Position numbers and translations under genes: made by a program
Shown: positions 46,371 through 61,608 of the stretch, one piece after another
How the letters are laid out: the number at the start of each line of letters is the position of its first letter
Numbering within the stretch: the stretch's first letter is position 1
Notes under the pieces: generated by a model
What the model was told of the DNA's origin: nothing
The model's database searches: none
The model's input: the letters and a program-made list of their open reading frames with translations, nothing else
Source of the DNA: Gordonia sp. X0973
Lineage (GTDB): Bacteria > Actinomycetota > Actinomycetes > Mycobacteriales > Mycobacteriaceae
Reading direction: 5' to 3'
NCBI RefSeq assembly: GCF_013348785.1
Contig: NZ_CP054691.1
Location: 1,798,001 to 1,862,000 of the forward strand
DNA length: 64,000 bases

Positions 46371-46824
46371 AGCCTTCGTCGACAAATTCATCGACTTCTG
46401 GACGGCGCCGTCGCCCGAACGACTCGGTGAGATCCTTCATCCCGACGTGGTGCTCACGCAACCGCTCGCCGCGCCCATGTACGGGTTGCCGGCAGCCGAG
46501 GAAGAGTTCCGCCGCATCTGGAAATGGCTGCCCGACCTACGGGCCGACGTCGACCGCTGGTCCGGCGACGACACCCTCGTGTTCATCGAATTCCGGTTGC
46601 ACGCACACGTGGACCACCGGCGCATCGAATGGCCGAACGTCGACCGGTTCATCCTGCGCGGGGAGAAGGCGATCGCCCGCATGAACTACTTCGATCCGCT
46701 GGCGGTACTGCGCGACCTCCCGCTGCGCCCCGGCCTGTGGCGACGCTGGTGGAGTTCGGGTGCGGCACGACCGTGGCGGTCGGGCCATCGGATGGCCCAC
46801 TACCGGCCCGACGCCGGCTCCTAG
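46363..46824 (+). CDS. NTF2-like (SnoaL-type) protein
   Basis: The 153 residues have the cone-shaped NTF2 pattern: a helical start (VDKFIDFWTAPSPERLGEILHPDVVLTQPL), then alternating strands with VFIEFRLHAHVDHRRIEW and a FYDPLA-like NYFDPLAVL. It binds small ligands or catalyses isomerisation in relatives; no catalytic residue can be named. It overlaps the PNPOx-like gene by 8 bases and shares a CTAG with the convergent irtB stop. Confidence 0.75.
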   Translation: MSEAFVDKFIDFWTAPSPERLGEILHPDVVLTQPLAAPMYGLPAAEEEFRRIWKWLPDLRADVDRWSGDDTLVFIEFRLHAHVDHRRIEWPNVDRFILRGEKAIARMNYFDPLAVLRDLPLRPGLWRRWWSSGAARPWRSGHRMAHYRPDAGS

Positions 46825-48527
46825 ACCTGCCAACCCTCGGATTCGCGCCATCGGGTCCAGAGGTCGGCGAAGACGCCGCCACGGGCCAACAGCTCGTCCA
46901 CCTTGCCCGAGTCGGCGATCCTGCCCTCGTCGAGCACGATCACCTGATCGGCCAGCGACACCAGCGCGGGGCGGTGCGTCACGATGACGACCGTCCGCTC
47001 GCCGCGCACCTGCTCGAGGGCGTCCACGACGGCACGCTCGGTGATCGCGTCGAGCGCCGACGTCGCCTCGTCGACGAGCAGGACGCCGGACGGCTTGGCG
47101 AGCGCGCGTGCGAGGCCCACTCGTTGCCGCTCCCCGCCGGACAGCGAATTGCCGCCCTCACCGACCCGGGAATCCCATCCCGACTCCAACGTCCCGACCA
47201 ATTCCGTCAACTGTGACCGCTCGGCGAGTGCGACGAGCTTCCCGTCGTCGGCAGCCCCGATGTTCTCGCGCAGGGTGCCCGGCCGCAATTGCGTCGACTG
47301 GAACACGACCGACGAGCCCGCGAGGCGCGCACCGGCGGGCACGGCGTCGCCGCCGACCGAAACCCGACCCGACGTCGGCTCCCGCAGCCCGGCGAGCACG
47401 TCGAGCAGTGTCGACTTGCCCGATCCGGATGCGCCGACGACGACGGTGACCCCGCCGGCCGGGAGCACCGCGTCGACGCCCTCCAACGCGGGCGTGCCGT
47501 CCGGATAGGTGAATCCGACATCCTGCAGTCGGAGTTCGGGTGAACCGCCGACGGCGGCCTTCGACGAGTCGCCCTCCCCCGCTGCCGCCCGATCCTCCTC
47601 GACGATCTCGCGGATCTCACGGAAGGTGCGGGTCGCGGATGCGGTCGGCGTCGCCAGCAGCGACAGCGATCCGACGACCTCGACGATCCGCAGCAGCACC
47701 ACGATCATCGTCGCCGCCGAGATGCCGGATAGCTCGCCGTTCAGATAGAGCGCACCGGTGGTGACACCGAAGGCCAAGAGCGTGAGCTGCAGGACGATGC
47801 TGAAGACCAGGTCGCCGGGGATCTGCCAGGCCAGCAGCCGCAAGCCGCGGCTGCGCGACTGCCGCAACACCCCGTCGACGGTCCCGGTGCCCACACCCGA
47901 GCCGCGCAGCGTCGGTTGGGCCCAGGCGAACTCGAACACCTTGTCGTTGAGGCCGCGGATCGCCTCGGAGTACGACGCCTCGGCCCGGCTCACGGCCCGC
48001 GCCGAGGCGGTGAGCGCGAGGAACATCGCCAGTGCGCCGACCAGCGCGACGAGCGCGAGTTTCCACGAGACGAAGAACAGCAGCAGGCCCAGAAGCGGTG
48101 TCAAGACGAGCGCGTGGATCAGCGGCGAGCCGAGCAGCACCATGACCGACACGGACTCGGTACCGCCCAACGCCACCAGGTCGCGCAGACGCGACGCCCG
48201 CTCGGAGTGCAGGCGGCCCGGATCCAGGCGCCGGATGGCGCCCAGACCGGACTTCTCGACCGCGTCGAGGATGTGGAATCCGACGCGCAGTCCGGTGCGG
48301 CTCGCGGCGCTGTCGGCCGCCCACGAGCCGATCAGTTCCAGGATCAGCAACCCCACCCACGGCCACGCCGACTTCACGTCACCGCTGAACAGCGCGTTGA
48401 GGAAGGGGATGAGCGTCATGATCGCCGCGGCCTGCAGCACGGTGGCCAGCACGGTCAGGGCGTAGAACCGCACGCGCAGGGGTCGTGCTTGCGGACCGGT
48501 CACGGCCGCGATATCGGAGAAGATCAT
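46821..48527 (-). CDS. irtB: siderophore ABC importer subunit IrtB-like
   Basis: Half-transporter of 568 residues: six membrane segments in the first 310, then a nucleotide-binding domain with Walker A GASGSGKSTLL, signature LSGGERQRV and Walker B VLLVDEATSALD. In mycobacteria IrtAB form an exporter-fold complex that imports Fe-carboxymycobactin. ATG 48527 overlaps the irtA stop (4 bases). The frame remains open far upstream inside irtA, but the coupled ATG and the homologous start MIFSDIAA decide. It is convergent with the NTF2-like gene. Confidence 0.88.
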   Translation of the reverse strand: MIFSDIAAVTGPQARPLRVRFYALTVLATVLQAAAIMTLIPFLNALFSGDVKSAWPWVGLLILELIGSWAADSAASRTGLRVGFHILDAVEKSGLGAIRRLDPGRLHSERASRLRDLVALGGTESVSVMVLLGSPLIHALVLTPLLGLLLFFVSWKLALVALVGALAMFLALTASARAVSRAEASYSEAIRGLNDKVFEFAWAQPTLRGSGVGTGTVDGVLRQSRSRGLRLLAWQIPGDLVFSIVLQLTLLAFGVTTGALYLNGELSGISAATMIVVLLRIVEVVGSLSLLATPTASATRTFREIREIVEEDRAAAGEGDSSKAAVGGSPELRLQDVGFTYPDGTPALEGVDAVLPAGGVTVVVGASGSGKSTLLDVLAGLREPTSGRVSVGGDAVPAGARLAGSSVVFQSTQLRPGTLRENIGAADDGKLVALAERSQLTELVGTLESGWDSRVGEGGNSLSGGERQRVGLARALAKPSGVLLVDEATSALDAITERAVVDALEQVRGERTVVIVTHRPALVSLADQVIVLDEGRIADSGKVDELLARGGVFADLWTRWRESEGWQV

Positions 48528-51094
48528 GCCAGTGCCTCCATCGCCTGGTTCTGCATGCGCGCGTACAGCCCGTCGTTGGCCAACAGTTCGGTGCGGGTGC
48601 CCTGTTCGGCGATCTTCCCGTCGTCGAGGACGACGATGAGATCGGCCTCGGCGACCGTATGCAGTCGATGGGCGATCACCAAGACCGTGCGGCCCTCCAA
48701 CAGCTTCGAGAGGCCCTGGCGGACCTCCCACTCGGAGTCCGGATCGGCGGCGGCGGTCGCCTCGTCGAGCACGACGAGGCGAGGGTCGCCGAGCAGCGCC
48801 CGGGCGATCGCGATCCGCTGGCGTTGTCCGCCGGACAGGCTGTCGCGGTCGACGACGGTGTCGTAGCCGTCGGGCAGCGCCTCGATCTCGGCGGCGATGA
48901 AGGCGGTCCGCGCCGCGGCGGCGATCTGTTCGCGGGTGGCCTGAGGGTGGCCGAGAGCGATGTTGTCCGCGACGGTGCCGGCGATCAACTGCACGTCCTG
49001 CAGTACGACGGCGATCTGGCCCCGCAACTCGTCCTCGCCGATCGTCTTGAGGTCGACGCCGTCCAGGGTGACACTCCCCTCCGCCGGGTCCCACAACCGT
49101 GCGGCCAGGGCGGCGACTGTCGACTTGCCCGATCCCGACGGCCCGACGATGGCGGTGGTCCCACCGGGGATGGGCGTCAGGTCGAAGTTTTCGACGACGT
49201 TGCGCCCGGGGGTGTAGCCGAAGGTGACGCCGTCGAAGCGCAGACTCGCGGCCTCGGCGCCCCGCGGTGCCGGTTCGGTGCCCGCGGCCAATTCCGGTGT
49301 CGTGAGCAGGAGTTCCAGTGCGGACTTCGCCAGCATCCCCTCGCGCAGGCCGTTGGCCGCGTAGGACACCGCCAGCAGGCGGTCGCCGAAGGAGGTGCCG
49401 AGAACCAGGAACGGCAGGATGGCCGTCGCCGGCATCCAGCCGATTCCGACGAGCGCGGTGCCCGCGGTCGCGATCAGGACGAGCGACGTCAACGGGCGGT
49501 TGAGTTGGATCATCGTCGCCTTGGTGTCGATGGTGATCCGCTGCCATTCCTTGAGGAAGGCGTTCAGCTTCGCCAATTCGCCGGGGAAGTCGACGGTCGC
49601 GCGGTCGCCGAAGACCCGGCTGACCGGCTGGTTGCCGATGTAGTTCTCCGCCTCACCGGGCAGTGTCGCATTCCAGCGCAGCATCTGGTTCAGCCGCGGC
49701 CGGTCCGACAGGCCGAGCCGCACCATGATCACGACGTAGGCGACGATCGGGATGAGCAGCACCAGGGCCAATGTCCAGTTCACCGAGAAGAGGTAGCCGA
49801 GGATCACCAGCGGCGTGACGACCGCGGTCACCAGGTCGACGATCGCGTGCGTGACCAGGTAGTGCAGCGCCGTGATGTCGTCCTGGGCGAGTTTGCGCAC
49901 CTCGGCGTGGCGTCGGCCCTGGAACCAGCCCAGCGGCAGGCCGGTGAACTTCGTCATCACGCGCTGCCGCAGCGCGGCCGAGTAGAACTGGTCGTAGACG
50001 TGCAGCCCGGCCATGAGCAGGGCGGTGAGTGTGGCGCCGGCGACCAGGATGATCGCGCCGACGACACCGATCCGTACCAGCTCGTCTCGCGTCGCGCCCT
50101 CGACGAATCGTCTGGCGACCTCCGCGAACAGCACCAACGGGAGGACCGCCAGCGCCGCCAGGACCAGCGCGATGACGCCGCTGAGGATGAACGCGGGTTT
50201 CGCCGGGCGCAGGATCGATTGTTCCCGGGCCCGCTCCCGCGACGCCTTGAGCGCCTCCGTCTGCGTCTCCCGGACGGGTGCGGCAACGGCGGCCGCGGTC
50301 TCCTCGGTCCCCTCGTCGTCTACGCCGGTCAGGTCGACCTCTGCGGCGTCGACCTGTTTGCCCATCGCGCGGCCGCGGATCCAGTAGGCCTGGGCGTGCA
50401 TCGTCGCCTTGTTGTGGCCGTCCTCCAGCTGCAGTCGCGATCGGACGAGTCGGGTGGCGGTGGTCTCCGCGGCGACGAAGGACTTCCATCCGCGGAAGGA
50501 CTCGGTGCCCAGGGCGTCGACCAGCGCACGCGCGTCGTCGGTGCCGGGCACCCAGGTCACGGTCAGCTTCGGATGGTCTGGAAGGGGCAGGTCGCGATCG
50601 TCGTCATGGGTGTATTCGAGGTACACGCGGACCGGCACGGCGGGGTCGGCCGCCTTGATGATCGTGACGATCCCCGGCCACGAGGCGACGTCGCCGACGA
50701 GCAGGTAGCCGGCGGGTTGGTCGCCGGAGATGTCCCACCCGTCCCCGCCCAGGCGGTGCATGACGAGTTCGTCGCCGACCTGCGCCCGGGCCGCCCAGTG
50801 CGACGCCGGGCCCGCGGGTTCGTGGACGAGGAAGCAGATCGCGAAGGTCCCGGACGCGGGATCGGGGTCGAGGAAGGTGTATCCCCGCTGGTGCAGCTTG
50901 GTTCTGCCGTCCGGGTCCGGGAACCACGCGCGGATCCACGCCGACGGCAGCTCCCCGTCGGCATACAGCAGCGTGTCGCTGTGGAAATCGATCCGGATCA
51001 CCGACGACGTGATGTTCCGGATCGCGGTCGCCGTCGCGGTGTGGTCCTTGGCGCCCATCGCGCGAAGGATCGCGCCCTGCCAGCCCATCCCCAT
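48524..51094 (-). CDS. irtA: siderophore ABC importer IrtA-like with fused siderophore-interacting FAD domain
   Basis: The 856-residue protein fuses an N-terminal siderophore-interacting (ferredoxin-reductase-like) domain (about 10-270; RGYTFLDPDP near 70 for FAD) to an ABC half-transporter (about 285-856; GPSGSGKSTV, LSGGQRQRIAIA, VVLDEATAAAD). The SIP domain reduces the ferric siderophore in the cytoplasm after import by IrtAB. Length and order match the mycobacterial protein. A putative IdeR/DtxR box sits 16 bases upstream of ATG 51094, so iron repression is expected. Confidence 0.9.
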   Translation of the reverse strand: MGMGWQGAILRAMGAKDHTATATAIRNITSSVIRIDFHSDTLLYADGELPSAWIRAWFPDPDGRTKLHQRGYTFLDPDPASGTFAICFLVHEPAGPASHWAARAQVGDELVMHRLGGDGWDISGDQPAGYLLVGDVASWPGIVTIIKAADPAVPVRVYLEYTHDDDRDLPLPDHPKLTVTWVPGTDDARALVDALGTESFRGWKSFVAAETTATRLVRSRLQLEDGHNKATMHAQAYWIRGRAMGKQVDAAEVDLTGVDDEGTEETAAAVAAPVRETQTEALKASRERAREQSILRPAKPAFILSGVIALVLAALAVLPLVLFAEVARRFVEGATRDELVRIGVVGAIILVAGATLTALLMAGLHVYDQFYSAALRQRVMTKFTGLPLGWFQGRRHAEVRKLAQDDITALHYLVTHAIVDLVTAVVTPLVILGYLFSVNWTLALVLLIPIVAYVVIMVRLGLSDRPRLNQMLRWNATLPGEAENYIGNQPVSRVFGDRATVDFPGELAKLNAFLKEWQRITIDTKATMIQLNRPLTSLVLIATAGTALVGIGWMPATAILPFLVLGTSFGDRLLAVSYAANGLREGMLAKSALELLLTTPELAAGTEPAPRGAEAASLRFDGVTFGYTPGRNVVENFDLTPIPGGTTAIVGPSGSGKSTVAALAARLWDPAEGSVTLDGVDLKTIGEDELRGQIAVVLQDVQLIAGTVADNIALGHPQATREQIAAAARTAFIAAEIEALPDGYDTVVDRDSLSGGQRQRIAIARALLGDPRLVVLDEATAAADPDSEWEVRQGLSKLLEGRTVLVIAHRLHTVAEADLIVVLDDGKIAEQGTRTELLANDGLYARMQNQAMEALA

Positions 51095-51212: not shown

Positions 51213-52688
51213 CTATGCCCGCGACGGAGGCAATGCGATGTATTTCGTGTTGAGGTACTCCTCGATCCCCTCGGTGCCGCCCTCGGAGCCGAACCCGGAG
51301 TGCTTGATCCCGCCGAACGGTGCCGCGGCGTCGGAGATGACCCCGCGGTTGACCCCGACCATCCCGGACTGGATGCGCGCCGCCACGCGCTGCGTGCGCG
51401 CCAGCGACTCGGTGTAGAAATACGACGCCAGGCCGTAGGGGGTGCCGTTCGCGAGTTCGATCGCCTCGTCCTCGGTGTCGAATCCGACGATCGCGGCCAC
51501 CGGGCCGAAGATCTCCGCGTCGCGTATCTTCGCGTGCGCGGGGATGTCGTCGACGACCGTCGGCTGATAGAAGCAGCCGGGACCATCGATCCGCTTGCCG
51601 CCCGTCAACACCCGGGCGCCCGCCGCGACGGCGTCGTCGACGAGGGCCTCGATCGACGACAGCTGGCGCTCGTTGATGATGGCGCCGAGCCCGACGCCCT
51701 CCGCCCAGCCCGGTCCGACGCGGGTCGCGGCGATGCGCTCGGTCAACCGCCGGGTGAACTCGTCGCGCACCGAGTTCTGCACGTAGATCCGGTTGGCGGC
51801 GGTACAGGCCTCCCCGCCGTTGCGCATCTTGGCGGCCATCGCCCCGTCGAGCGCCGAGTCCAGGTCGGCGTCGTCGAAGACGATGAACGGAGCGTTGCCG
51901 CCCAACTCCATCGACGTGCGGAGCAGTTGCTCCGACGACTGCGCGACGAGTGCCTTGCCGACGCCAGTCGAGCCGGTGAACGACACTTTTCGCAACCGCG
52001 GGTCGCCCATGATCGCGGCGACGACCCCCTTGGAGTCCATCGTCGGCAGTACCGACAGCACACCGGCGGGCAGCCCGACGTCGGCGAAGACCTGCGCCAA
52101 CAGCAGCATGGTCAGCGGCGTGTCCTCCGACGGCTTGACGATGATCGTGCACCCGGCGGCCAGTGCCGGCCCGATCTTGCGGGTGCCCATCGCCAGGGGG
52201 AAGTTCCACGGTGTGACCGCCAGGCACATCCCCACCGGCTCCTTGGTAACGAGGATCTCCCCGTTTCCCGCGGGCGCGGTTGCCGTGCGGCCGCCGATCC
52301 GAACGGCCTCCTCGCTGAACCACCGGAGGAATTCGGCGCCGTAGGCGACCTCGCCTCGGCTCTCGGCGAGGATCTTGCCCATCTCCAGTGTCATCACCAG
52401 GGCGAAGTCGTCGGCGCGCGCGGTGACGAGTTCGAAGGCCTTGCGCAGGATCTCCGCCCGCTGCCGGGGCGGTGTGGCCGCCCACTGCGGCGCAACGGCC
52501 GCCGCGGCGTCCATCGCCGCGCGCGCATCGTCGACGGTGGCGTCGGCGACCGTGGCCAGCCGCTTACCGGTGGCCGGGTTGACGACCTCGAATTCACCGG
52601 CGGCAGAACGGGATTCACCGGCAATCCACAGGCCGGTGGGCACGCCTGCGGGCAGCTCGGGGACGGAATCAGCGGACACGACGGTCAC
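51213..52688 (-). CDS. gabD: succinate-semialdehyde dehydrogenase
   Basis: Oxidises succinic semialdehyde to succinate, ending GABA breakdown. The 491-residue ALDH has the catalytic Cys in NGGEACTAANRIYV, the general base Glu in MELGGNAPF and the NAD(P) region SFTGSTGVGKALV. GTG 52688 is 6 bases after the gabT stop on the same strand. The match to GabD is by motif and context, though other semialdehydes cannot be excluded. It is the last gene of the amine/GABA cluster. Confidence 0.9.
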   Translation of the reverse strand: MTVVSADSVPELPAGVPTGLWIAGESRSAAGEFEVVNPATGKRLATVADATVDDARAAMDAAAAVAPQWAATPPRQRAEILRKAFELVTARADDFALVMTLEMGKILAESRGEVAYGAEFLRWFSEEAVRIGGRTATAPAGNGEILVTKEPVGMCLAVTPWNFPLAMGTRKIGPALAAGCTIIVKPSEDTPLTMLLLAQVFADVGLPAGVLSVLPTMDSKGVVAAIMGDPRLRKVSFTGSTGVGKALVAQSSEQLLRTSMELGGNAPFIVFDDADLDSALDGAMAAKMRNGGEACTAANRIYVQNSVRDEFTRRLTERIAATRVGPGWAEGVGLGAIINERQLSSIEALVDDAVAAGARVLTGGKRIDGPGCFYQPTVVDDIPAHAKIRDAEIFGPVAAIVGFDTEDEAIELANGTPYGLASYFYTESLARTQRVAARIQSGMVGVNRGVISDAAAPFGGIKHSGFGSEGGTEGIEEYLNTKYIALPPSRA

Positions 52689-52694
52689 CTCTGT

Positions 52695-54047
52695 TCATCG
52701 GGTCGCCGCGCGAACGGCGTCGGCGAGGACGCCGATCCCCTCGTCCAGGAGGTCGTCGCCGATGACGAGCGGCGGCAGCAAACGGATCACGTTTCCATAT
52801 GTACCGCACGTGAGGACGACGACGCCCTCGGCGAGGGCCGCCGAGGCGATCGCCTTGGTCAGTGCTGGGTCGGGATCGGTGGTGCCGGGTGTGACGATCT
52901 CGACGGCGATCATCGCCCCGCGGCCGCGGATGTCGCCGATGACGCCGACCTCGTCGGCCAGTGCGCGCAGCTTCGCCGTCGCGGCCGCGTTGATGGCCCG
53001 CGCGCGGCCGGCGAGGTCGGCGCGCGCCATCGTCTCGATGGCCGCCAGTGCCGCGGCGCAGGCGACCGGATTGCCCCCGTAGGTCCCGCCGAGGCCGCCG
53101 GCGTGCACCGCGTCGAGCAGTTCGGCCCGCCCGGTGACCGCGGCCAGCGGCATCCCGCCGGCGATCCCCTTGGCCATCGTGATCAGGTCGGGCACGATGC
53201 CCTCGTCGTCGCAGGCGAACCACGAGCCGGTGCGCGCGAACCCGGTCTGCACCTCGTCGGCGATGAACACGACGCCGTGCTCGCGCGCCCAGTCGACGAG
53301 GGTGGGCAGGAAGCCGGGTGCGGGCACGATGAACCCGCCCTCACCCTGGATCGGCTCGATGATCATCGCCGCGAGCTGATCGGCCCCGATCTGCGTCTCC
53401 ATCTGGGCGATCGCCCGCCGCGCGGCGGCCACGCCGTCGTCCCCGAGCGGATCGCGGTACGGATAGGACATCGGCATGCGGTAGACCTCGGGTGCGAAGG
53501 GCCCGAAGCCGGTCTTGTACGGCATCGTCTTGGCGGTCAGCGCCATCGTCAGGTTCGTGCGCCCGTGATAGGCGTTGTCGAAGGCGACGACGGCTTCGCG
53601 GCCGGTGGCCAGTCGGGCCACTTTGATCGCGTTCTCCACCGCCTCGGCGCCCGAGTTGAAGAGCACCGTGCGCTTCTCGTGATCGCCCGGGGTCAACTCG
53701 TTGAGCTTCTCCGCGACCGCGACGTAGCCCTCGTACGGCGTGACCATGAAGCAGGTGTGCGTGAAGTGGGCCGCCTGCTCGGCGACGGCGGCGGCGACCC
53801 CAGGATCGCTGGCCCCGACGGTGGTGACGGCGATGCCGGCACCGAGGTCGATCAGCGAATTCCCGTCGACGTCGACGATCACTCCCCCGTCGGCGTCGAC
53901 CGCGTAGACGGGGACCGACGACCCGACGCCGGCGGCCACGGCGGCCCGGCGCCGGGCGGCGAGTTCCTCCGACCGCGGCCCGGGGATGGCGGTGCGGAGG
54001 ATGCGCCGCTGCGGCACCCGCGACGCGCTGGTGACGGTCGATGTCAT
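52695..54047 (-). CDS. gabT: 4-aminobutyrate aminotransferase
   Basis: Class III PLP transaminase converting GABA and 2-oxoglutarate to succinic semialdehyde and glutamate. The 450 residues show FIADEVQTGFARTG (PLP ring Asp) and the Schiff-base Lys in DLITMAKGIAGGMP. PLP-phosphate binding FNSGAEAVENA lies near 120. It is placed between the permease and gabD with 9-base and 6-base gaps, so it is cotranscribed. Confidence 0.94.
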   Translation of the reverse strand: MTSTVTSASRVPQRRILRTAIPGPRSEELAARRRAAVAAGVGSSVPVYAVDADGGVIVDVDGNSLIDLGAGIAVTTVGASDPGVAAAVAEQAAHFTHTCFMVTPYEGYVAVAEKLNELTPGDHEKRTVLFNSGAEAVENAIKVARLATGREAVVAFDNAYHGRTNLTMALTAKTMPYKTGFGPFAPEVYRMPMSYPYRDPLGDDGVAAARRAIAQMETQIGADQLAAMIIEPIQGEGGFIVPAPGFLPTLVDWAREHGVVFIADEVQTGFARTGSWFACDDEGIVPDLITMAKGIAGGMPLAAVTGRAELLDAVHAGGLGGTYGGNPVACAAALAAIETMARADLAGRARAINAAATAKLRALADEVGVIGDIRGRGAMIAVEIVTPGTTDPDPALTKAIASAALAEGVVVLTCGTYGNVIRLLPPLVIGDDLLDEGIGVLADAVRAATR

Positions 54048-54056
54048 GGGGACCTC

Positions 54057-55598
54057 CTAGGGCTCCGGCAGGGGTGGCGTGTCGCGGCTGAGGGTTTCGC
54101 CGCGGAAGAAGGCGGGGTGCGCCGATCGCCAGATGAGCATCAGGACCGCGCCCAGCAGCAGCAGGCCGAATCCCATGATGAAGACCAGTCCGATCCCGCC
54201 CACTGAGGTGCCGCTGCCGGAATCGGGGTTGAGACTCTCCTTCACCGAGATCACGAACACGGTGGCCAGGATGATCCCGCCGAGCAGCGGGAAGACCAGC
54301 TTGAAGACGATGTTGTGCACCGAGTCGAACAGTTCCCGGCGGAAGAACCAGACGCAGGCGAAGGCGGTGATCCCGTAGTACCAGCAGATCATGATGCCCA
54401 GCGCGGCGATGGTGTCCCACAGGGCGTGCTCGGAGAGCAGCTTCACCGCGACGTAGAAGACGCTGGTGACGATCGCCGAGACGACCGTCGCGAAGGTCGG
54501 GACCATGAACCGAGGATGGACCGTGGCGAGCTTGCGCGGGAACGCCCCGTAGGCGCCCATCGCCAGCATGGTGCGGGCCGCCGGGAGGAATGTGGTCTGC
54601 AGACTCGCGACCGAGGACGCGAAGATCGCCAGGAACAGCATCAACCCGCCGAAGCTGCCGAGCACCGGATTGGCCAGCGGCTTGAACACGTTCTCCGAGT
54701 TCGCCGTCGCCCCCAGGCCGATCCCCTTGTCGCCGACCCCGGCGTACATCATCACCGCGACCGCGACCAGCAGGTAGGTCAGCAGGATCGTGATGACGGC
54801 GAGGAGTCCCGCCCGGCCGGGCGTCTTCTCCGGGTCCTTGGATTCCTCGCCCAGGGTGAGGCAGGTATCCCATCCCCAGAACGCGAAGATCGAGCCGGTC
54901 ACGCCGACGATGAATGCTCCCAGGGCGAGCCCGCTGAACGGGTTGAACCAGCTCAGCGAGAAGGCGACGTGGAACTGCGAGCTCGACGCCCGCACGATGG
55001 CCATGACCGCGAAGACCACGAGGACGACCATCTGGAATCCGACGAGGGCGTACTGCACGACCTGGCTGGTGGTGATGCCCCGACCGGCTATCCAGGCCGC
55101 GACGGCGATGAACGCGAGTGTCGTCGCGATGTTGATCAGCTTGTTCCCGGACAGGTCGGCTATGTGGTCGTTGTGGAAGACCTGCGCGAGGAAGAGGTAG
55201 AAGAAGTCGACGGCGATCGCGGCGAGGTTGGAGAGCACGATAATGGTGGCGAGGACCATCCCCCAGCCGCACATCCACCCGACGTACGGTCCGAAGGCCT
55301 TGGTCGACCAGGTGAACGAGGCACCGCAGTCGGGCGCCCGCGAGTTGAGTTCGCGGTAGGCGTAGGCGGTGAGGAACATCGGGATGAACCCGGCGATGAA
55401 GATGGCGGGCATCTTCAACCCGACGGCCGCGACGATTACGCCGATACTGGCGGTCAGCGTGTACCCGGGGGCCACGCAGGACACGCCGAGGACCGCGCCG
55501 GCGAAGGTGCCGACCTTGCCCGTGGCGAGTCCCTTGTCGAGGAGGTCGGAGCCCTGGTGGGTCGTGACGACGGTCGGGGTGGGGTCGGGAGCGCTCAT
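54057..55598 (-). CDS. APC-family amino acid/GABA/polyamine permease
   Basis: About 12 hydrophobic segments over 513 residues, with the APC helix I motif APGYTLTASIGVI near 46 and AGFIPMFLTAYAYRELN after it. It likely imports GABA or a related amine; the cluster gives the clue, the sequence alone does not. ATG 55598 shares one base with the stress-protein stop (TGATG); GTG 55601 directly before it is the alternative. Confidence 0.88.
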   Translation of the reverse strand: MSAPDPTPTVVTTHQGSDLLDKGLATGKVGTFAGAVLGVSCVAPGYTLTASIGVIVAAVGLKMPAIFIAGFIPMFLTAYAYRELNSRAPDCGASFTWSTKAFGPYVGWMCGWGMVLATIIVLSNLAAIAVDFFYLFLAQVFHNDHIADLSGNKLINIATTLAFIAVAAWIAGRGITTSQVVQYALVGFQMVVLVVFAVMAIVRASSSQFHVAFSLSWFNPFSGLALGAFIVGVTGSIFAFWGWDTCLTLGEESKDPEKTPGRAGLLAVITILLTYLLVAVAVMMYAGVGDKGIGLGATANSENVFKPLANPVLGSFGGLMLFLAIFASSVASLQTTFLPAARTMLAMGAYGAFPRKLATVHPRFMVPTFATVVSAIVTSVFYVAVKLLSEHALWDTIAALGIMICWYYGITAFACVWFFRRELFDSVHNIVFKLVFPLLGGIILATVFVISVKESLNPDSGSGTSVGGIGLVFIMGFGLLLLGAVLMLIWRSAHPAFFRGETLSRDTPPLPEP

Positions 55599-56458
55599 CA
55601 CGCGTCCTCCTTCGGGACGATGACCATCGGGACGTCGAGGACCCGCAGCATCTTCGCCGCGGTGGAGCCGAGGAATAGGCGGCGGCGGGCCGCGAGGCGG
55701 CTCGAACCGACCATGATGAGGTCGCCGTCATGCCAGTCGAGCTTGTTGACCGCGTCTTCGACGGTCGGGCCGGTGACGATCTCCCAGCGCACCTCGGTGC
55801 CCGCGGGCAGCCTGGTCCGCGCGCTCTGGAACGCCTCTTGGGCGTGGTTGGTCGCGGCGGCGATCACCTCCTCGTCGGGGCGCCGCCCCCGCGCGGTGCG
55901 GTCGAGTGCGATCAGCGACACGACCCGCAACCGGGCGCCGGTCGCCTTCGCCGCGCGGATCGCGGTGTCGAACAGCAGGTCCGCCCCCGGCTTCATCCCC
56001 AGCGCGCAGGTGATCTCGCGGACCTTGGCGATCTTGGACCGGCGCGCACCCCGCGGTGACAACACGAGTGGAAGCGGCGACGAGTGCACCAATTCGTTGA
56101 CCGTGGAACCCAGCGTGTGGCCGCCGATCAACCCGCCGCCGGAACCGCCGACGATGATCGCCGACGCGCCGACCTGCTGCGCCTGCGCGATGATCCCCTC
56201 GGCGGCGGAGTCGGAGAAGGAGATGTGCGACGCGACCTCCACGTCGTCGGGGACGAGGTCGCGCGCCTGCGCCAACCATTCGTCGGCCTGTTCGGCCAGC
56301 ACCGCGTCGAAATCGCCCGAGTGCAGCGCGGCCTGCTCATCGGGCGGCAGGATCATCCCGATGTCGAGCGCCGCCGAGAGCGAGTGCGCGAGGCGCACGC
56401 CGATCGCGACGGCGTCGGCACCGCCGTCGGTGGCCAGATAAGCGACATAGAGCCTCAT
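55598..56458 (-). CDS. tandem universal stress protein
   Basis: The 286 residues contain two Usp domains (about 1-140 and 150-286); ATP-binding G-2X-G-9X-G(S/T)-like motifs appear as VGGSGGGLIGGHTLGSTVNEL in the first and VGSSRLAARRRLFLGSTAAKML in the second. ATG 56458 is chosen since GAGAGG lies 8 bases upstream; GTG 56467 is the longer alternative. It is inserted between the amine oxidase and permease genes, with a 12-base gap and a 1-base overlap, so it belongs to the operon. Perhaps it responds to aldehyde or peroxide by-products (inference). Confidence 0.85.
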   Translation of the reverse strand: MRLYVAYLATDGGADAVAIGVRLAHSLSAALDIGMILPPDEQAALHSGDFDAVLAEQADEWLAQARDLVPDDVEVASHISFSDSAAEGIIAQAQQVGASAIIVGGSGGGLIGGHTLGSTVNELVHSSPLPLVLSPRGARRSKIAKVREITCALGMKPGADLLFDTAIRAAKATGARLRVVSLIALDRTARGRRPDEEVIAAATNHAQEAFQSARTRLPAGTEVRWEIVTGPTVEDAVNKLDWHDGDLIMVGSSRLAARRRLFLGSTAAKMLRVLDVPMVIVPKEDA

Positions 56459-56470
56459 CGTCGACACCTC

Positions 56471-58420
56471 TCAGTGCTCGCAGCCGCAACTCGAGCCGCC
56501 GCAGTGCGACGACTTCGACGGTGACGGCTCCACGTCGAGCGACGGGTTGCGCTCGAAGAATCCGAACGGTTTGAGCCAGAAGCTCACGGTGTCCGCTGGC
56601 ATGATCGGCCAGTCCTCGGGCCGCGTGATGTGGTGGATGCCGAAGGTGTACCAGAGCACCACGTCGGTGTTCTCGATGCTGCGGTTGCGCTTGGTCCATT
56701 CCGGCAGCCCCATCCCGGTGCCGCCCTGGTTGACGAATTCGCCCGCCGGCCACCGTTCGTCTCGCGCGTTGGGCGTCACCCACAGGGAGTGCTTGATGAC
56801 CTCCGCGCGGCCGAGCACCGGCGAGTCCTCGTTGAACATCGACGGGAAGGCCCCCGACGGGGAGAGCTTGTAGGCCGGGTGCAGGCCGATCCCCGTCGTC
56901 ACGTTGTCGTTGGCGATCTTCCACGACCGCTGCGTCGCGAAATCAGGGTTCTGTTTGCCCTCGGATTCGGTGCGCAGCGGGGTGTTCTCCTGCCGCAGCG
57001 AGAGGCCGAACGGGTTGTCCGGGCCGATCGGCTCCGGCTTCGTCTCACTGCGATAGACCGTGTTGGCGGTGCCGTCGATGTCGAGGTCGAGCCGCGCGGT
57101 GAGGAAGTGCTGGTGATAGGGCGCGTAGGTCAGGTTGTCGACGATCGTGCCGTGTGCCGGCTGCTCGCCGGGCGCGAAATGGGTGACGACCATGATGCCG
57201 GTCGCGCGGACCTCGCATTCGATGTTGCCGTCCTGGTAGAAGCGCCAATACGTGAGGTACTCGTAGTTGGCGACGGTGACGTGGAAGGAGACGGTGAGTC
57301 GTCGCATGCGGCGGACCTGCGCGTCGCCGTTGCCGTCGACGTGCTTCCAGAGGACGGCGTTGTCCTCCTCGTGGATGCAGATGGCGTTCTTGATCGTGTA
57401 CGGCTTCCCGGCGCTGTCGTGCAGCACAGCGTCGAGGTAGCGGATCTCGCCGAGACAGTCGCAGCCGAGCTCCAGGGAGGTCGTCATGAAGCCGAGGCCC
57501 CATTCGCCGATGTCGAAGGCGGTGCGGCGGAAGTGATCCGGGCAGTGGTCGCGGTAGGGCACCATCATCTCGGCGAACGACAGCCGGTGCGCAATCTTGC
57601 GGACCTTCCCGTTGTCGTTGTAGGTGATCGCGTGCAGCGTCATGCCCTCGCGGTGGTTGAACCCGACGCGCAGCGACCAGTTCTGCCACTGGAGGCGGTT
57701 ACCGGTGAGCGTGAACGACGGTCCCTCCGGCTGTGTGATGTCCAGCGGCTTGAGCGGTTCCCGCGTCGACGCCTTGCGGATCCGTTCCGGGATGTGACTG
57801 GGCAGGTACTCCCCCATGATCTCCGGCGTCGGCACCGTGGCCGTCTCGTCGATCTCGAGGAGCTCCATCGAGTTCAGGTCGAGCAGACAGTGGAATCCCT
57901 TGACCGGGCCGGCATACGGATTGGCACCCTCGGAGGCCCGCACCCAGGTGTCCGACCAGCCGACACGCCGATCCCGGTACTGCTCCGGGATCACGGCCTC
58001 GCCGAAGGTCCAGGTGTCCATGAACACCAGGTCGAGATCGGTGATCCCGCGGGCGGCGAGCGCGGCGATGACGTCGGGATGGTTGCGCAGCATCTCGTCG
58101 GCCTCATGCCACTCGTCGACCGTGACGTTGGGCTGCACCCCGGCGATGTGTGTCCAGTCCCGGACCTCGCCGTCGTCGAGGGACACCAGCGCTTTGTAGG
58201 TCGAGTTGGTGGCCCGCTCGACCACGACGGCCTCGGCGTCGCGCGGGCACGCGGTCCCCTTGGCGTCGAAGGCGTCGAGCTGGTCCTTGGACGGTTCGAC
58301 CATCTCCATCGACGTGTATCGCCACCCCTCGCCGACGCCGTGGCCGGCGGCGAGGATCTCGGTGATGCGGGTGAACTCGTCGGCGGTCAGCGGGTCGAGC
58401 GGATGGAAGGTGTCGGACAT
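56471..58420 (-). CDS. copper-containing primary-amine oxidase
   Basis: Oxidises primary amines to aldehydes with release of ammonia and hydrogen peroxide, using copper and topaquinone. The 649-residue chain has the cofactor Tyr386 in VTVANYEYL, the catalytic Asp303 in AFDIGEWGLG and copper ligands His436 and His438 in YHQHF. No signal peptide is seen, so it acts in the cytoplasm. The C-terminus ends in an unusual Ser/Cys/His-rich tail (HCGGSSCGCEH). In this cluster, with aminobutyraldehyde dehydrogenase next to it, putrescine is the likeliest substrate; tyramine or phenylethylamine remain possible. Confidence 0.92.
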   Translation of the reverse strand: MSDTFHPLDPLTADEFTRITEILAAGHGVGEGWRYTSMEMVEPSKDQLDAFDAKGTACPRDAEAVVVERATNSTYKALVSLDDGEVRDWTHIAGVQPNVTVDEWHEADEMLRNHPDVIAALAARGITDLDLVFMDTWTFGEAVIPEQYRDRRVGWSDTWVRASEGANPYAGPVKGFHCLLDLNSMELLEIDETATVPTPEIMGEYLPSHIPERIRKASTREPLKPLDITQPEGPSFTLTGNRLQWQNWSLRVGFNHREGMTLHAITYNDNGKVRKIAHRLSFAEMMVPYRDHCPDHFRRTAFDIGEWGLGFMTTSLELGCDCLGEIRYLDAVLHDSAGKPYTIKNAICIHEEDNAVLWKHVDGNGDAQVRRMRRLTVSFHVTVANYEYLTYWRFYQDGNIECEVRATGIMVVTHFAPGEQPAHGTIVDNLTYAPYHQHFLTARLDLDIDGTANTVYRSETKPEPIGPDNPFGLSLRQENTPLRTESEGKQNPDFATQRSWKIANDNVTTGIGLHPAYKLSPSGAFPSMFNEDSPVLGRAEVIKHSLWVTPNARDERWPAGEFVNQGGTGMGLPEWTKRNRSIENTDVVLWYTFGIHHITRPEDWPIMPADTVSFWLKPFGFFERNPSLDVEPSPSKSSHCGGSSCGCEH

Positions 58421-58466
58421 GGGCGGTGCTCCTTCTCGTCGGTGGGTGCGGGGCGGTGGAGCAGGG

Positions 58467-59894
58467 TCAGTCGTGGGCGCTCATCACATGCTTGATGCGC
58501 GTGTAGTCCTCCAGGCCGTAGATCGACAGGTCCTTGCCGTATCCGGAGTGTTTGAACCCGCCGTGCGGCATCTCCGCGACCAGCGGGATGTGACAGTTCA
58601 CCCACACGCAGCCGGCGTCGATGCGGGCGGTGGTCCGGGTGACGGTCCCGTGGTCGGTGGTCCACACGCTGGACGCGAGGCCGTAGTCGACGCCGTTGGC
58701 CAGCTCGACGGCCTCGTCCTCGGTGCGGAAGGGCTGGACGGTGATGATCGGCCCGAAGGTTTCCTCCTGGACGATCGGATCGTCCTGCGCGACACCGGTG
58801 ACCACCGTCGGCTCGACGTAGAAGCCGCGGTCGCCGACCCGTTTGCCGCCGGTAGCGATGGTGGCGTGCGCGGGTACCGCGTCGATCTTGGCCATGACCG
58901 CGGTGAAGTGGTTGACGTTGTTCAGCGCGCCGAAGAACGCGTCCTCGTCGTCCGGGGCGCCGGGCCGGAGCTTGCGCGCCTGCGCGACCAGGGCGGTGAC
59001 GAATTCGTCGTGGACCGACTCGTGGACCAGCGCGCGGGTGGCCGCGGTGCAGTCCTGGCCGCCGTTGAAGAAGGCGGCCTGGGCGATGCCCTCGGCGGCC
59101 TTCGCGATGTCGGCGTCGGCGAAGACGACGGCCGGCGCCTTGCCGCCGAGCTCGAGATGCGCCCGCCGCACGTCTCGGGCCGCGGCCTGGGCGACGGCGA
59201 TCCCGGCGCGCACCGATCCGGTGATCGCGACGAGGCCGAGGGCTGGGTTCTCGACGAGGGTGGCGCCGGTCGCGCCATTGCCCAGCACGACGTTGAACAC
59301 CCCGTCGGGCAGAATGCCCCGGGTGATGTCGGCGAGGACCAGCGTGCTCTCCGGCGTCGTGTCGCTGGGTTTGAGGACGATTGTGTTCCCGGCGGCCAAC
59401 GCGGGTGCGATCTTCCAGACGGCCATCATGAACGGGTAGTTCCACGGGGTGACCTGACCGACGACGCCGATCGGTTCGCGGCGCACGTAGCTGGTGAAAC
59501 CCTCCATGTACTCCCCCGCGGCGCGCCCTTCGAGAAGGCGGGCGGCCCCCGCGAAGAACCGGATCTGGTCGGCGCCGACGAGTACCTCTTCGGACTTGAC
59601 CATCGCCGCGAGCTGACCGGTGTTCCGGACCTGCGCGGCCACCAACTCGTCGGCACGCGCCTCGATCGCGTCGGCGAGGTCGAGCAGCATCTTCTGCCGC
59701 TGGCCCGGTGTCGTGCGGCCCCACGTCGTCGCCGCGCGTTGGGCGACGATCACGGCGCCGGCCACCTCGTCGGCCGTCGAATTGGGTGAGACCGCGACGA
59801 CGGATTCGTCGGCCGGGTTGACGACGTCGAAGGTGTCGGCGGAGGCGGAGTCGACGAACTCGCCGTCGATGAAGTTCTTGAGCCTGGTGGTCAC
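58467..59894 (-). CDS. 4-aminobutyraldehyde dehydrogenase
   Basis: ALDH of 475 residues starting VTTRLKNFIDGEFVDS, with catalytic Cys in NGGQDCTAATRALV and Glu in LELGGKAP. The N-terminal FIDGEFV and the TPWNYPFMMAVWKIAPAL region resemble gamma-aminobutyraldehyde/betaine aldehyde dehydrogenases such as PatD. GTG 59894 is used: GAGAGG is 8 bases upstream, and the frame further out has no family match. It is the first gene of the cluster and would turn the amine oxidase product 4-aminobutanal into GABA. Confidence 0.87.
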   Translation of the reverse strand: MTTRLKNFIDGEFVDSASADTFDVVNPADESVVAVSPNSTADEVAGAVIVAQRAATTWGRTTPGQRQKMLLDLADAIEARADELVAAQVRNTGQLAAMVKSEEVLVGADQIRFFAGAARLLEGRAAGEYMEGFTSYVRREPIGVVGQVTPWNYPFMMAVWKIAPALAAGNTIVLKPSDTTPESTLVLADITRGILPDGVFNVVLGNGATGATLVENPALGLVAITGSVRAGIAVAQAAARDVRRAHLELGGKAPAVVFADADIAKAAEGIAQAAFFNGGQDCTAATRALVHESVHDEFVTALVAQARKLRPGAPDDEDAFFGALNNVNHFTAVMAKIDAVPAHATIATGGKRVGDRGFYVEPTVVTGVAQDDPIVQEETFGPIITVQPFRTEDEAVELANGVDYGLASSVWTTDHGTVTRTTARIDAGCVWVNCHIPLVAEMPHGGFKHSGYGKDLSIYGLEDYTRIKHVMSAHD

Positions 59895-60033
59895 GATCAG
59901 AGCCTCTCGTCGGGTGCGGCACAGCGGTGGTGTCGGATGTACTGGCTTGATCTGTACTGTGTTCCACATCACAGGGCGGCGCATCTGCCAATTTGTCTAT
60001 CCAGATGCCGAATTAATGGACAGAATGGCGGGT
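59895..60033. promoter_or_regulatory. divergent regulatory region between the amine operon and pucR-like gene
   Basis: It contains a CRP/GlxR-like palindrome at 59958-59973 and the inverted repeat TTTGTCTAT (59992-60000) / ATGGACAGA (60016-60024), 7 of 9 positions matching. The region must carry both promoters; no unambiguous -10 was found. Confidence 0.5.
59958..59973. promoter_or_regulatory. CRP/GlxR-type binding site
   Basis: TGTGTTCCACATCACA fits TGTGA-N6-TCACA with one mismatch in ten conserved positions, about 64 bp upstream of the aminobutyraldehyde dehydrogenase start. Confidence 0.6.
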
Positions 60034-61608
60034 ATGGCTGTGACTCTGCGCTGGCTCGTGGGCCGTCGGCATCTCGGTCTCACCGTCGTGGCCGGTGCCG
60101 ACCGCCTCGACCGCGAGATCGGCTACGTCATCACCACCGAACTCGCCGACCCCACGCCGTGGCTCGGCGGCGGCGAGATGGTGCTTGTCACCGGGCTCGG
60201 CCTGCCCCAATCCGACGACGATCTCGACGCCTACGTCGCCCGGTTGGTCGACCGCGACGTGGTGGGGATCGGATTCGGTGTGGGGGTCAGCACCGACACC
60301 ATTCCCCGCGGGCTGGTGCGCGCCGCACGCAATCGCGGTCTGCCGCTGATCGCGGTACCCCTGCCGACCCCCTTCCTCGCCGTCGCCAAGGCGGTCTCCC
60401 AGCGCGCCGAGACGCTGCGCGACCGGGCCCAGGAGGCGACCGCGCGCGCACAACCGCGGCTGACCCGGGCCGCTGCCGTCGGCGGTCGATCCGCGTTGCT
60501 CACCGAATTGGCCAAGGCGTGCGACGGGACCGCGATCCTCCTCGACCCACACGGCCGGACCGTCGACAGCCGCCCGGCGCTCCCCGGACCCGACGTCCTG
60601 GGGGCGGTGGGCGAACTCGCCCGCCGGGTCTCGTTCGGCCTCGCGGCCGGAACGACGAGCACGGGTCCGGCGGTGGTGCACACCATCCGGGTCGGCGAGC
60701 GCACCCACGGGTACCTGGCGCTGGTCTCCCCGCACGAACCCCGCCCCACCGACCACGTCCTCATCGGTCACGCCAACTCGCTGCTGGCACTCGACTTCGA
60801 GAAGCCCAGACGGGTCGACGAGAGTGCCACGCGCGTGAACGGCACCGCGTTGGGGTTGGCCCTCGGCGACGCCGCCGATGTCGACGGCATCCACCGCGTG
60901 CTGGCGCCCGCCGCCGATCACAGCGGCCGGATTCGGGTGCTCGTCATCCTGACCGAACCCGAGGGCGCCCCGGCGCTCGCCGGACATGTGGAACAAGCGC
61001 TGCGCAGCGCCTCGCGCCCGCCGTTCGTCACCGTCCGCCCGGATGGATCGGTGGTCGTACTGCTGCGGGCCGACGACGATCCGACGACCACCGCCGTCCT
61101 GCTGGGCGGACTGCCCGTCGGGGTGCGGCGCCGACTGCGCGTCGGCCTGAGCACCCCCGCCGTCCCGGCCGATGTCGCGGCGGCTGCGGCCGTGGCACGG
61201 ACCGCGGCCGAGGCCGCGCGCCCGGGTGCGGCGCCGACCGACGCCGCCAAGCTAGCCGGACACTCGCTGCTCAGCATGCCCGCGACGGCGGACGCCCTGA
61301 CCCAACTGGGCACGGTCTACGTCACCCCCCTCGTGGCACACGACGCGGCGCACGGAACCGATCTGGTGGCCTCGTTGCGGGCCTACCTGGAAGGACACGG
61401 CCAATGGGAGACGGCCGCCGCCATGATCGGCGTCCACCGCCACACCCTGCGCGCCCGGATCGACCGAATCCGCGAGCTACTGGACGTGGACCTGGACTCC
61501 GCTCGGGTGCGCGCCGAACTGCTGTTGGCCGTGCTGGCCCATCGCGGCGGGACTAGCGGCGCAACGAGTCGACGTGCGTCGGGGCCGTCTCCAACCACAC
61601 CGCTTTGA
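60034..61608 (+). CDS. PucR-family transcriptional regulator
   Basis: The N-terminal PucR domain (about 1-125; VTLRWLVGRRHLGLTVVAGA) and the C-terminal helix-turn-helix (about 450-500; GQWETAAAMIGVHRHTLRARIDR, HTH_30 type) define the family; the middle is a GGDEF-like/GAF-like region. PucR proteins usually activate nitrogen-compound catabolism genes. ATG 60034 matches the usual start MAVTLRW; ATG 60016 and 60025 are possible, and no start has a good ribosome binding site. Divergent from the amine/GABA operon, it is its probable activator. Its last 56 bases overlap the convergent ALDH gene. Confidence 0.85.
   Translation: MAVTLRWLVGRRHLGLTVVAGADRLDREIGYVITTELADPTPWLGGGEMVLVTGLGLPQSDDDLDAYVARLVDRDVVGIGFGVGVSTDTIPRGLVRAARNRGLPLIAVPLPTPFLAVAKAVSQRAETLRDRAQEATARAQPRLTRAAAVGGRSALLTELAKACDGTAILLDPHGRTVDSRPALPGPDVLGAVGELARRVSFGLAAGTTSTGPAVVHTIRVGERTHGYLALVSPHEPRPTDHVLIGHANSLLALDFEKPRRVDESATRVNGTALGLALGDAADVDGIHRVLAPAADHSGRIRVLVILTEPEGAPALAGHVEQALRSASRPPFVTVRPDGSVVVLLRADDDPTTTAVLLGGLPVGVRRRLRVGLSTPAVPADVAAAAAVARTAAEAARPGAAPTDAAKLAGHSLLSMPATADALTQLGTVYVTPLVAHDAAHGTDLVASLRAYLEGHGQWETAAAMIGVHRHTLRARIDRIRELLDVDLDSARVRAELLLAVLAHRGGTSGATSRRASGPSPTTPL

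Follow-up and report, generated by a model that had tools for sequence, protein, structure and literature searches.

Can a copper amine oxidase (CAO) take the first step of putrescine catabolism in an operon where sister lineages use a flavoprotein? This question is raised by six adjoining genes of the soil bacterium Gordonia sp. X0973, located on the minus strand at 51213–59894 of the window, by which we mean the whole 64,000-nucleotide stretch analyzed (positions 1798001–1862000 of the 3.75-Mb single contig of the host genome). Sequence comparison led us to regard it as quite likely that these genes constitute a putrescine catabolic operon in which CAO does the first step, with a divergent PucR-family regulator probably controlling it. 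The pathway is a known one in variant form; the exchange of oxidases within one operon is what is new.

Genes of the operon and proposed pathway

The operon genes, in their order, and the regulator gene are as follows.

58467–59894, minus strand: ALDH1, aminobutyraldehyde dehydrogenase-like, first operon gene (NF010000; nearest solved relatives 1wnb and 6c43)
56471–58420, minus strand: CAO, copper/topaquinone amine oxidase (PF01179, NF008559, 1rjo/1av4)
55598–56467, minus strand: Usp, tandem universal stress protein (PF00582 in two stretches; motif at residue 107)
54057–55601, minus strand: APC-family permease, candidate importer of an amine or of γ-aminobutyrate (GABA) (AA_permease_2, PF13520, 2.4e-25 in Pfam)
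52695–54047, minus strand: GabT, GABA:2-oxoglutarate aminotransferase (NF004714 and TIGR00700, both over cut-off)
51213–52688, minus strand: GabD-like aldehyde dehydrogenase (TIGR01780, below cut-off; context)
60025–61608, plus strand: divergent PucR-family regulator with a GGDEF-like domain (PF07905, 1.4e-26; PF13556, 4.6e-17; PF17853, the GGDEF-like domain, 9.1e-06, over cut-off)

All six operon genes were intact and followed one another on one strand in the order given in a preliminary description of this DNA. The gaps between successive genes were 46, 3, −4, 9, and 6 bp, none above 46 bp. Since junctions of this size are as expected for one transcript, the six genes are likely co-transcribed. 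The regulator gene, absent from the gene list of that description, lies head-to-head with the operon across a gap of 130 bp.

ALDH1 passed the aminobutyraldehyde dehydrogenase subfamily model NF010000 of NCBIfam (629.7 bits vs a cut-off of 615) and missed the cut-off of the equivalog TIGR03374 (498.5 vs 909.3); its solved relative 6c43 is named gamma-aminobutyraldehyde dehydrogenase. The ALDH1 frame could open as early as 59984. The alternative GTG at 59894, the start given in the preliminary description, seems likelier because relatives align from this position and a candidate promoter element sits at 59958–59990. GabT scored 780.3 bits with NF004714 and 602.8 bits with the GABA-specific equivalog TIGR00700, and is the sole close copy in the genome, the next-best match being 39%. 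The APC permease had no close relative among solved structures.

In the proposed route, the permease would import putrescine (or GABA), and CAO would convert putrescine and O2 in the cytosol to 4-aminobutanal (1-pyrroline), NH3, and H2O2. ALDH1 would then oxidize 4-aminobutanal to GABA, GabT would convert GABA to succinic semialdehyde, and GabD would convert the latter to succinate. The divergent PucR-family protein, together with its inducer, would probably control the operon. We consider this route to be probably right.

Copper amine oxidase

CAO matched PF01179 at 1e-151 (505.9 bits) and showed only CAO domains in the Pfam scan; it is not a flavin amine oxidase of the 2yg3 type. It scored 899 bits with NF008559 (cut-off 651), which NCBIfam names only 'primary-amine oxidase', and is present as a single copy in the genome. 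By mapping on 1rjo, the precursor of the topaquinone cofactor was placed at Tyr386 within N-Y-E, the catalytic base at Asp303, and the copper ligands at His436, His438, and His597. CAO therefore has the N-Y-[DE] tyrosine, the catalytic Asp, and the three copper His that mark a copper/topaquinone amine oxidase, and we see no reason to question its fold. Tyr386, Asp303, His436, and His438 were kept in all 50 rows of the clade and His597 in 49, the remaining row being truncated. By eye no signal peptide was apparent, and CAO is therefore probably cytosolic.

The top-scoring solved relatives, 1rjo (416.8 bits) and 1av4 (414.2 bits), are phenylethylamine oxidases (AGAO of Arthrobacter globiformis), and they have the topaquinone consensus, the base Asp, and the three copper His in common with CAO. 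This resemblance would fit an enzyme that, like AGAO, oxidizes aromatic monoamines (phenylethylamine, tyramine) and stands in the operon by chance. We regard this as extremely improbable: yeast methylamine oxidase scored nearly as high (405.7 bits), and the linkage of CAO with gab and agu genes, described below, is recurrent. Furthermore, Ala301 of CAO aligns with a Tyr of AGAO, presumably Tyr296, the 'gate' residue; Ala occupied this site in 50/50 clade rows, and Tyr was present at it in 14 of 20 distant paralogues. For the combination of tyramine, cadaverine, and putrescine, the passage cited from one study (PMC9547800) names only copper enzymes of fungi or yeasts as suitable.

Sixteen sister CAOs (loci L061, L065–L078, and L081; 67–70% identity), nearly all mycobacterial by record title, had none of the operon genes or agmatine genes (AguA/AguB, below) nearby above the thresholds used. 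By eye, the next gene was phosphotransferase-type kinase-like in L067 and L075, and an esterase-like open reading frame (ORF) lay upstream in L061 and L075. Four acidic residues of the clade (Asp157, Asp295, Asp428, and Asp447), which could not be placed in the CAO channel, were dropped as a diamine signature, being present in 16/16 of these sisters. The Cys/His tail of CAO was likewise dropped as a novelty: it is variable (at least three Cys among the last 20 residues in 12/50 clade members), and similar short tails occur in distant paralogues and 1rjo. In three genomes CAO appeared as two separate hits (G143:C5:4649951-4651866, G141:C50:283758-285749, and G052:C1:3909049-3910949), a picture that a frameshift, a break, or a sequencing error would give.

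Exchange of copper and flavin oxidases

In two sister loci (L142 and L143), PucR, ALDH1 (73%), Usp (about 50%), and the APC permease (74–75%) occurred without CAO, and a flavin oxidase adjoined them. Aligned over its whole length, the flavin oxidase of L143 was nearly identical to 2yg3, a putrescine oxidase of Rhodococcus with a solved structure (1006.8 bits). This suggests that CAO fills a slot held in sister lineages by the unrelated flavin putrescine oxidase (PuO).

The exchange was counted in 251 genomes of the host's family, evenly drawn and not a census, with identity thresholds of at least 57% for CAO, 57% for PuO, and 69% for ALDH1; an oxidase was taken as near ALDH1 within 10 kb (CAO) or 12 kb (PuO). 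CAO was present in 66 genomes, PuO in 33, and both in 14. The PuO count omits G149 and G169, where the hits were in two pieces (35 with them); an ALDH1 of G201 (L216) was omitted as well, its identity being 64% and that of the adjoining PuO 57%. The split PuO relatives (60–63%; G149:C348 and G169:C1:1906986-1909304) were each directly followed by a Usp match. The preliminary description had called a copper enzyme in a GABA operon less usual; in this family sample the copper version is the commoner of the two, and we dropped rarity as a point of interest.

Among 70 ALDH1 copies, 65 lay near one or both oxidases (45 near CAO only, 15 near PuO only, and 5 near both), and two of the five near neither (in G097 and G186) were at contig ends. 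ALDH1 was counted in 66 of the 85 genomes with CAO or PuO vs 1 of the 166 counted as lacking both. With the genes lettered R (PucR), B (ALDH1), C (CAO), U (Usp), A (APC), T (GabT), D (GabD), and F (PuO), near-identical layouts differed in the oxidase: R-B-T-C-D-U-A in L157 vs R-B-T-D-U-A-F in L158, and F-R-B-T-C-D-U-A in L169 vs F-R-B-T-D-U-A in L178. On a tree of the 70 ALDH1 rows, at least four changes between CAO-only and PuO-only were required, or three if three loci with PuO 8.8 kb away count as both; the deepest forks are weak, and such counts do not separate gain from loss. Because CAO and PuO occupy the same slot of one operon, putrescine is supported as the physiological substrate of the CAO group.

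The known pathway that Rhodococcus and Arthrobacter run with flavin PuO (2yg3) shares its ALDH1, Usp, APC, and PucR genes, and in many cases GabT, GabD, and AguA/AguB, with the Gordonia operon. The proposed chemistry is also the same, but the first step of the known pathway is performed by a flavoprotein, whereas in Gordonia sp. X0973 it would be performed by a member of an unrelated copper/topaquinone family. For Arthrobacter Rue61a, the same order of steps has been proposed with PuO and AguA/AguB (PMC3534580). In the Gordonia sp. X0973 genome, ten PF01593 matches were found, and a search for PuO at 1e-60, with 6 of 31 candidates scored, gave no match. In the open PMC literature, a scope that leaves most subscription journals outside, no title or abstract start among the papers listed described CAO in such an operon.

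Conservation of the operon

The comparison of gene order across genomes that the preliminary description had suggested was carried out on named CAO loci (the best 80 of 186 kept) and on the 50 CAO loci of the family sample; the two sets overlap. The 80 loci came from Gordonia, Tsukamurella, Mycolicibacterium, Mycobacteroides, Rhodococcus, Williamsia, Antrihabitans, and others. They contained ALDH1 in 53 cases (three at only 55–56%), Usp in 42, APC in 42, GabT in 39, GabD in 35, and AguA or AguB in 28, counts that are lower bounds because several loci stop at contig edges. All six genes occurred together in 21/80 and 18/50 loci, and by this recurrence their association exceeds chance. The order was modular among relatives: B-C-U-A-T-D, as in Gordonia sp. 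X0973, B-T-C-D-U-A, B-T-C-D, and B-C-U-A.

The GABA genes of the cluster have a counterpart in the gabTDP operon of Corynebacterium glutamicum, which likewise combines a permease with GabT and GabD and is activated by a divergently encoded protein of the PucR family, GabR (PMC7652997); differently organized gab clusters occur in Rhodococcus erythropolis and Mycobacterium abscessus (PMC7652997, Figure 3 legend). Relative to gabTDP, the Gordonia operon adds ALDH1, CAO, and Usp. One could thus read the locus as a GABA utilization operon (gabT, gabD, permease, and PucR) to which CAO and ALDH1 were added for another amine, a reading that suits the control of gabTDP by a PucR-type protein and the presence of only one GabT in the genome. 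We consider it very unlikely, since ALDH1 and CAO come first in the operon and their pair persists where GabT or GabD is not visible; GabT was found in 29/48 and GabD in 28/48 CAO-only loci within the fetched stretches. In addition, GabR is described without the GGDEF-like domain (PF17853) that the Gordonia PucR protein has (PMC7652997).

Regulator and shared upstream elements

The PucR-family regulator accompanied 36/48 CAO-only, 2/2 mixed, and 15/15 PuO-only loci. In the gap between it and ALDH1, two elements were recognized.

59982–59990, minus strand: upstream element 1 (TGGCAGATG), candidate operator, pattern TGGCA[GC]nTG
59958–59973, minus strand: upstream element 2 (TGTGATGTGGAACACA), CRP/GlxR-like, pattern [TA]GTGA...CACA

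Of 68 ALDH1 upstream regions, 21 contained the element 1 pattern (shuffles, mean 0.44 and maximum 3; random stretches, mean 0.72 and maximum 5) and 26 the element 2 pattern (mean 0.2 and maximum 2 for shuffles as well as random stretches). These counts are not independent because the patterns were derived from the same 68 sequences and the genomes are related. Both occurred in 18 regions, nine of CAO type and nine of PuO type, and element 2 always started 17 bp after element 1. This constant spacing across CAO and PuO promoters is the main point of the comparison. As a guess, element 1 may be the PucR operator. Element 2 resembles CRP/GlxR sites. A GlxR site is present in the gabTDP promoter of C. 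glutamicum (PMC7652997). A 7-14-7 inverted repeat at 59981–60008 was not among the repeats of 19 other upstream regions compared.

Agmatine genes and probable source of putrescine

AguA denotes a relative of agmatine deiminase, and AguB one of carbamoylputrescine amidase; their best models were TIGR03380 and TIGR03381, with both scores below the cut-offs. One or both lay within 10 kb of ALDH1 in 30/48 CAO-only loci (three of which have PuO just beyond the fetched stretch), 2/2 loci with both oxidases, 13/15 PuO-only loci, and 2/5 loci with neither, or in 32/50 CAO loci overall. Around 20 distant CAO paralogues (39–43% identity), chosen by eye as controls, AguA, AguB, GabT, GabD, Usp, and PuO were found in 0/20 loci. 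Another aldehyde dehydrogenase (36–46%) was found in 13 of them, an APC permease (39%) in one, and a relative (32%) of the other, non-PuO FAD oxidoreductase described below in one. The control CAOs likewise tend to sit near some aldehyde dehydrogenase, but not near gab or agu genes. AguA and AguB together convert agmatine to putrescine, and for this reason their linkage points to putrescine as the substrate.

In the Gordonia sp. X0973 genome itself, one gene of the Orn/DAP/Arg decarboxylase family was seen; it is lysA-like and follows an argS-like ORF, as read from translations. An OKR decarboxylase was not found by search, nor were an agmatine deiminase or an arginase/agmatinase-family gene, the deiminase search being a weak one by protein query without a positive control. 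We take it from these results that the putrescine handled by the operon most likely comes from outside the cell.

Several observations weigh against the proposed pathway. Co-occurrence of CAO and PuO was above expectation (odds ratio 2.35, Fisher p 0.03), and since 14 genomes share both and five loci have both flanking the same ALDH1, the two are not strict alternatives. No ALDH1 was near 16/66 CAO copies and 13/33 PuO copies. Ala301 of CAO recurred, with the acidic residues, in the 16 sister CAOs without gab genes nearby, and sequence alone leaves the substrate unfixed. The best model of GabD, the succinic semialdehyde dehydrogenase TIGR01780, scored 544.8 bits, under its cut-off of 646.35, and the assignment of succinic semialdehyde to GabD would rest partly on context. 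One or both upstream elements were missing from 50/68 promoters, including most Williamsia-like and Rhodococcoides-like CAO loci. Finally, the two agmatine-route genes that were not found in the host genome belong here.

These last absences, and the 18 of 50 CAO loci without AguA/AguB within 10 kb, would also suit a broad scavenger of diamines and polyamines, whose substrate need not be tied to an agmatine route. Here CAO would act mainly on cadaverine, diaminopropane, agmatine, or spermidine, and GabT/GabD would also take 5-aminovalerate or similar; the copper amine oxidase family accepts many amines (PMC3382800). This seems unlikely to us, because the putrescine-making AguA/AguB accompany 32/50 CAO loci, the exchange partner of CAO is a putrescine oxidase, and GabT passes the GABA-specific TIGR00700. 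We hence retain the putrescine pathway: the amine-to-succinate route of the preliminary description is supported by the PuO exchange, the AguA/AguB linkage, and the shared upstream element, and putrescine, there called an inference, now appears supported by gene context.

Universal stress protein and permease

Usp was present in 31/48 CAO-only, 2/2 mixed, and 13/15 PuO-only loci. Its first half carried a G-2X-G-9X-G-[S/T] motif in 31/48 copies and its second half in 0/48. Given its frequency beside PuO, a stress protein within the operon is not peculiar to the copper version, and Usp was dropped as a sign of the H2O2 of the copper enzyme. In the closest earlier work, Foster et al. (2013) reportedly found genes for stress, transport, and regulation clustered with that of the flavin putrescine oxidase; Usp was therefore probably noted there.

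A functional link between Usp and the permease appears plausible by analogy. Usp also adjoined an APC permease in L119, L120, L121, and L145, and TeaD of Halomonas is said to be a Usp that regulates a transporter. In these four loci the APC (42–44%) and Usp (36–38%) genes were near an aldehyde dehydrogenase (44–45%) and a class III aminotransferase (31–32%); a different FAD oxidoreductase was nearby in L119, L121, and L145, and the cluster is of amine type. A fixed Usp–permease pair is disfavored by the second Usp copy of the genome (G000:C1:1295445-1296284; L112 9431-10285; 53%), around which no APC match was found in an 18-kb stretch. No APC match was seen near Usp in L084, L089, L095, and L098 within the 1.5 kb covered per side.

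Flanking genes

By reading translations, two large ABC-transporter ORFs were recognized on the minus strand at 46821–51094, 118 bp downstream of gabD; the first has a siderophore-interacting domain-like start, as in the mycobactin importers IrtA/IrtB. On the other side, a third aldehyde dehydrogenase gene (PF00171; 61553–63013, minus strand) is convergent with the PucR gene. Beyond it (L113 4554-12150), lipid-transfer/thiolase-, acyl-CoA dehydrogenase-, and CaiB-like ORFs were recognized by eye; with the third aldehyde dehydrogenase they perhaps form another catabolic cluster.

Implications of the oxidase exchange

A further-reaching model is possible, though we place it somewhat short of even: a putrescine-dedicated actinobacterial CAO clade would have been swapped several times with PuO in one operon under a shared promoter, and Usp would not be a general stress protein but would sense nucleotides as a partner of the permease. 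If true, either of two unrelated redox cofactors could serve one and the same metabolic step. Apart from this model, a bacterial CAO group named only as primary-amine oxidase gains a likely physiological substrate. The family also offers a natural experiment on copper/quinone vs flavin for the same O2-using step, with respect to metal supply, H2O2 load, and substrate range. Since genomes carry either oxidase in nearly the same gene order, a direct comparison by swapping would be possible.

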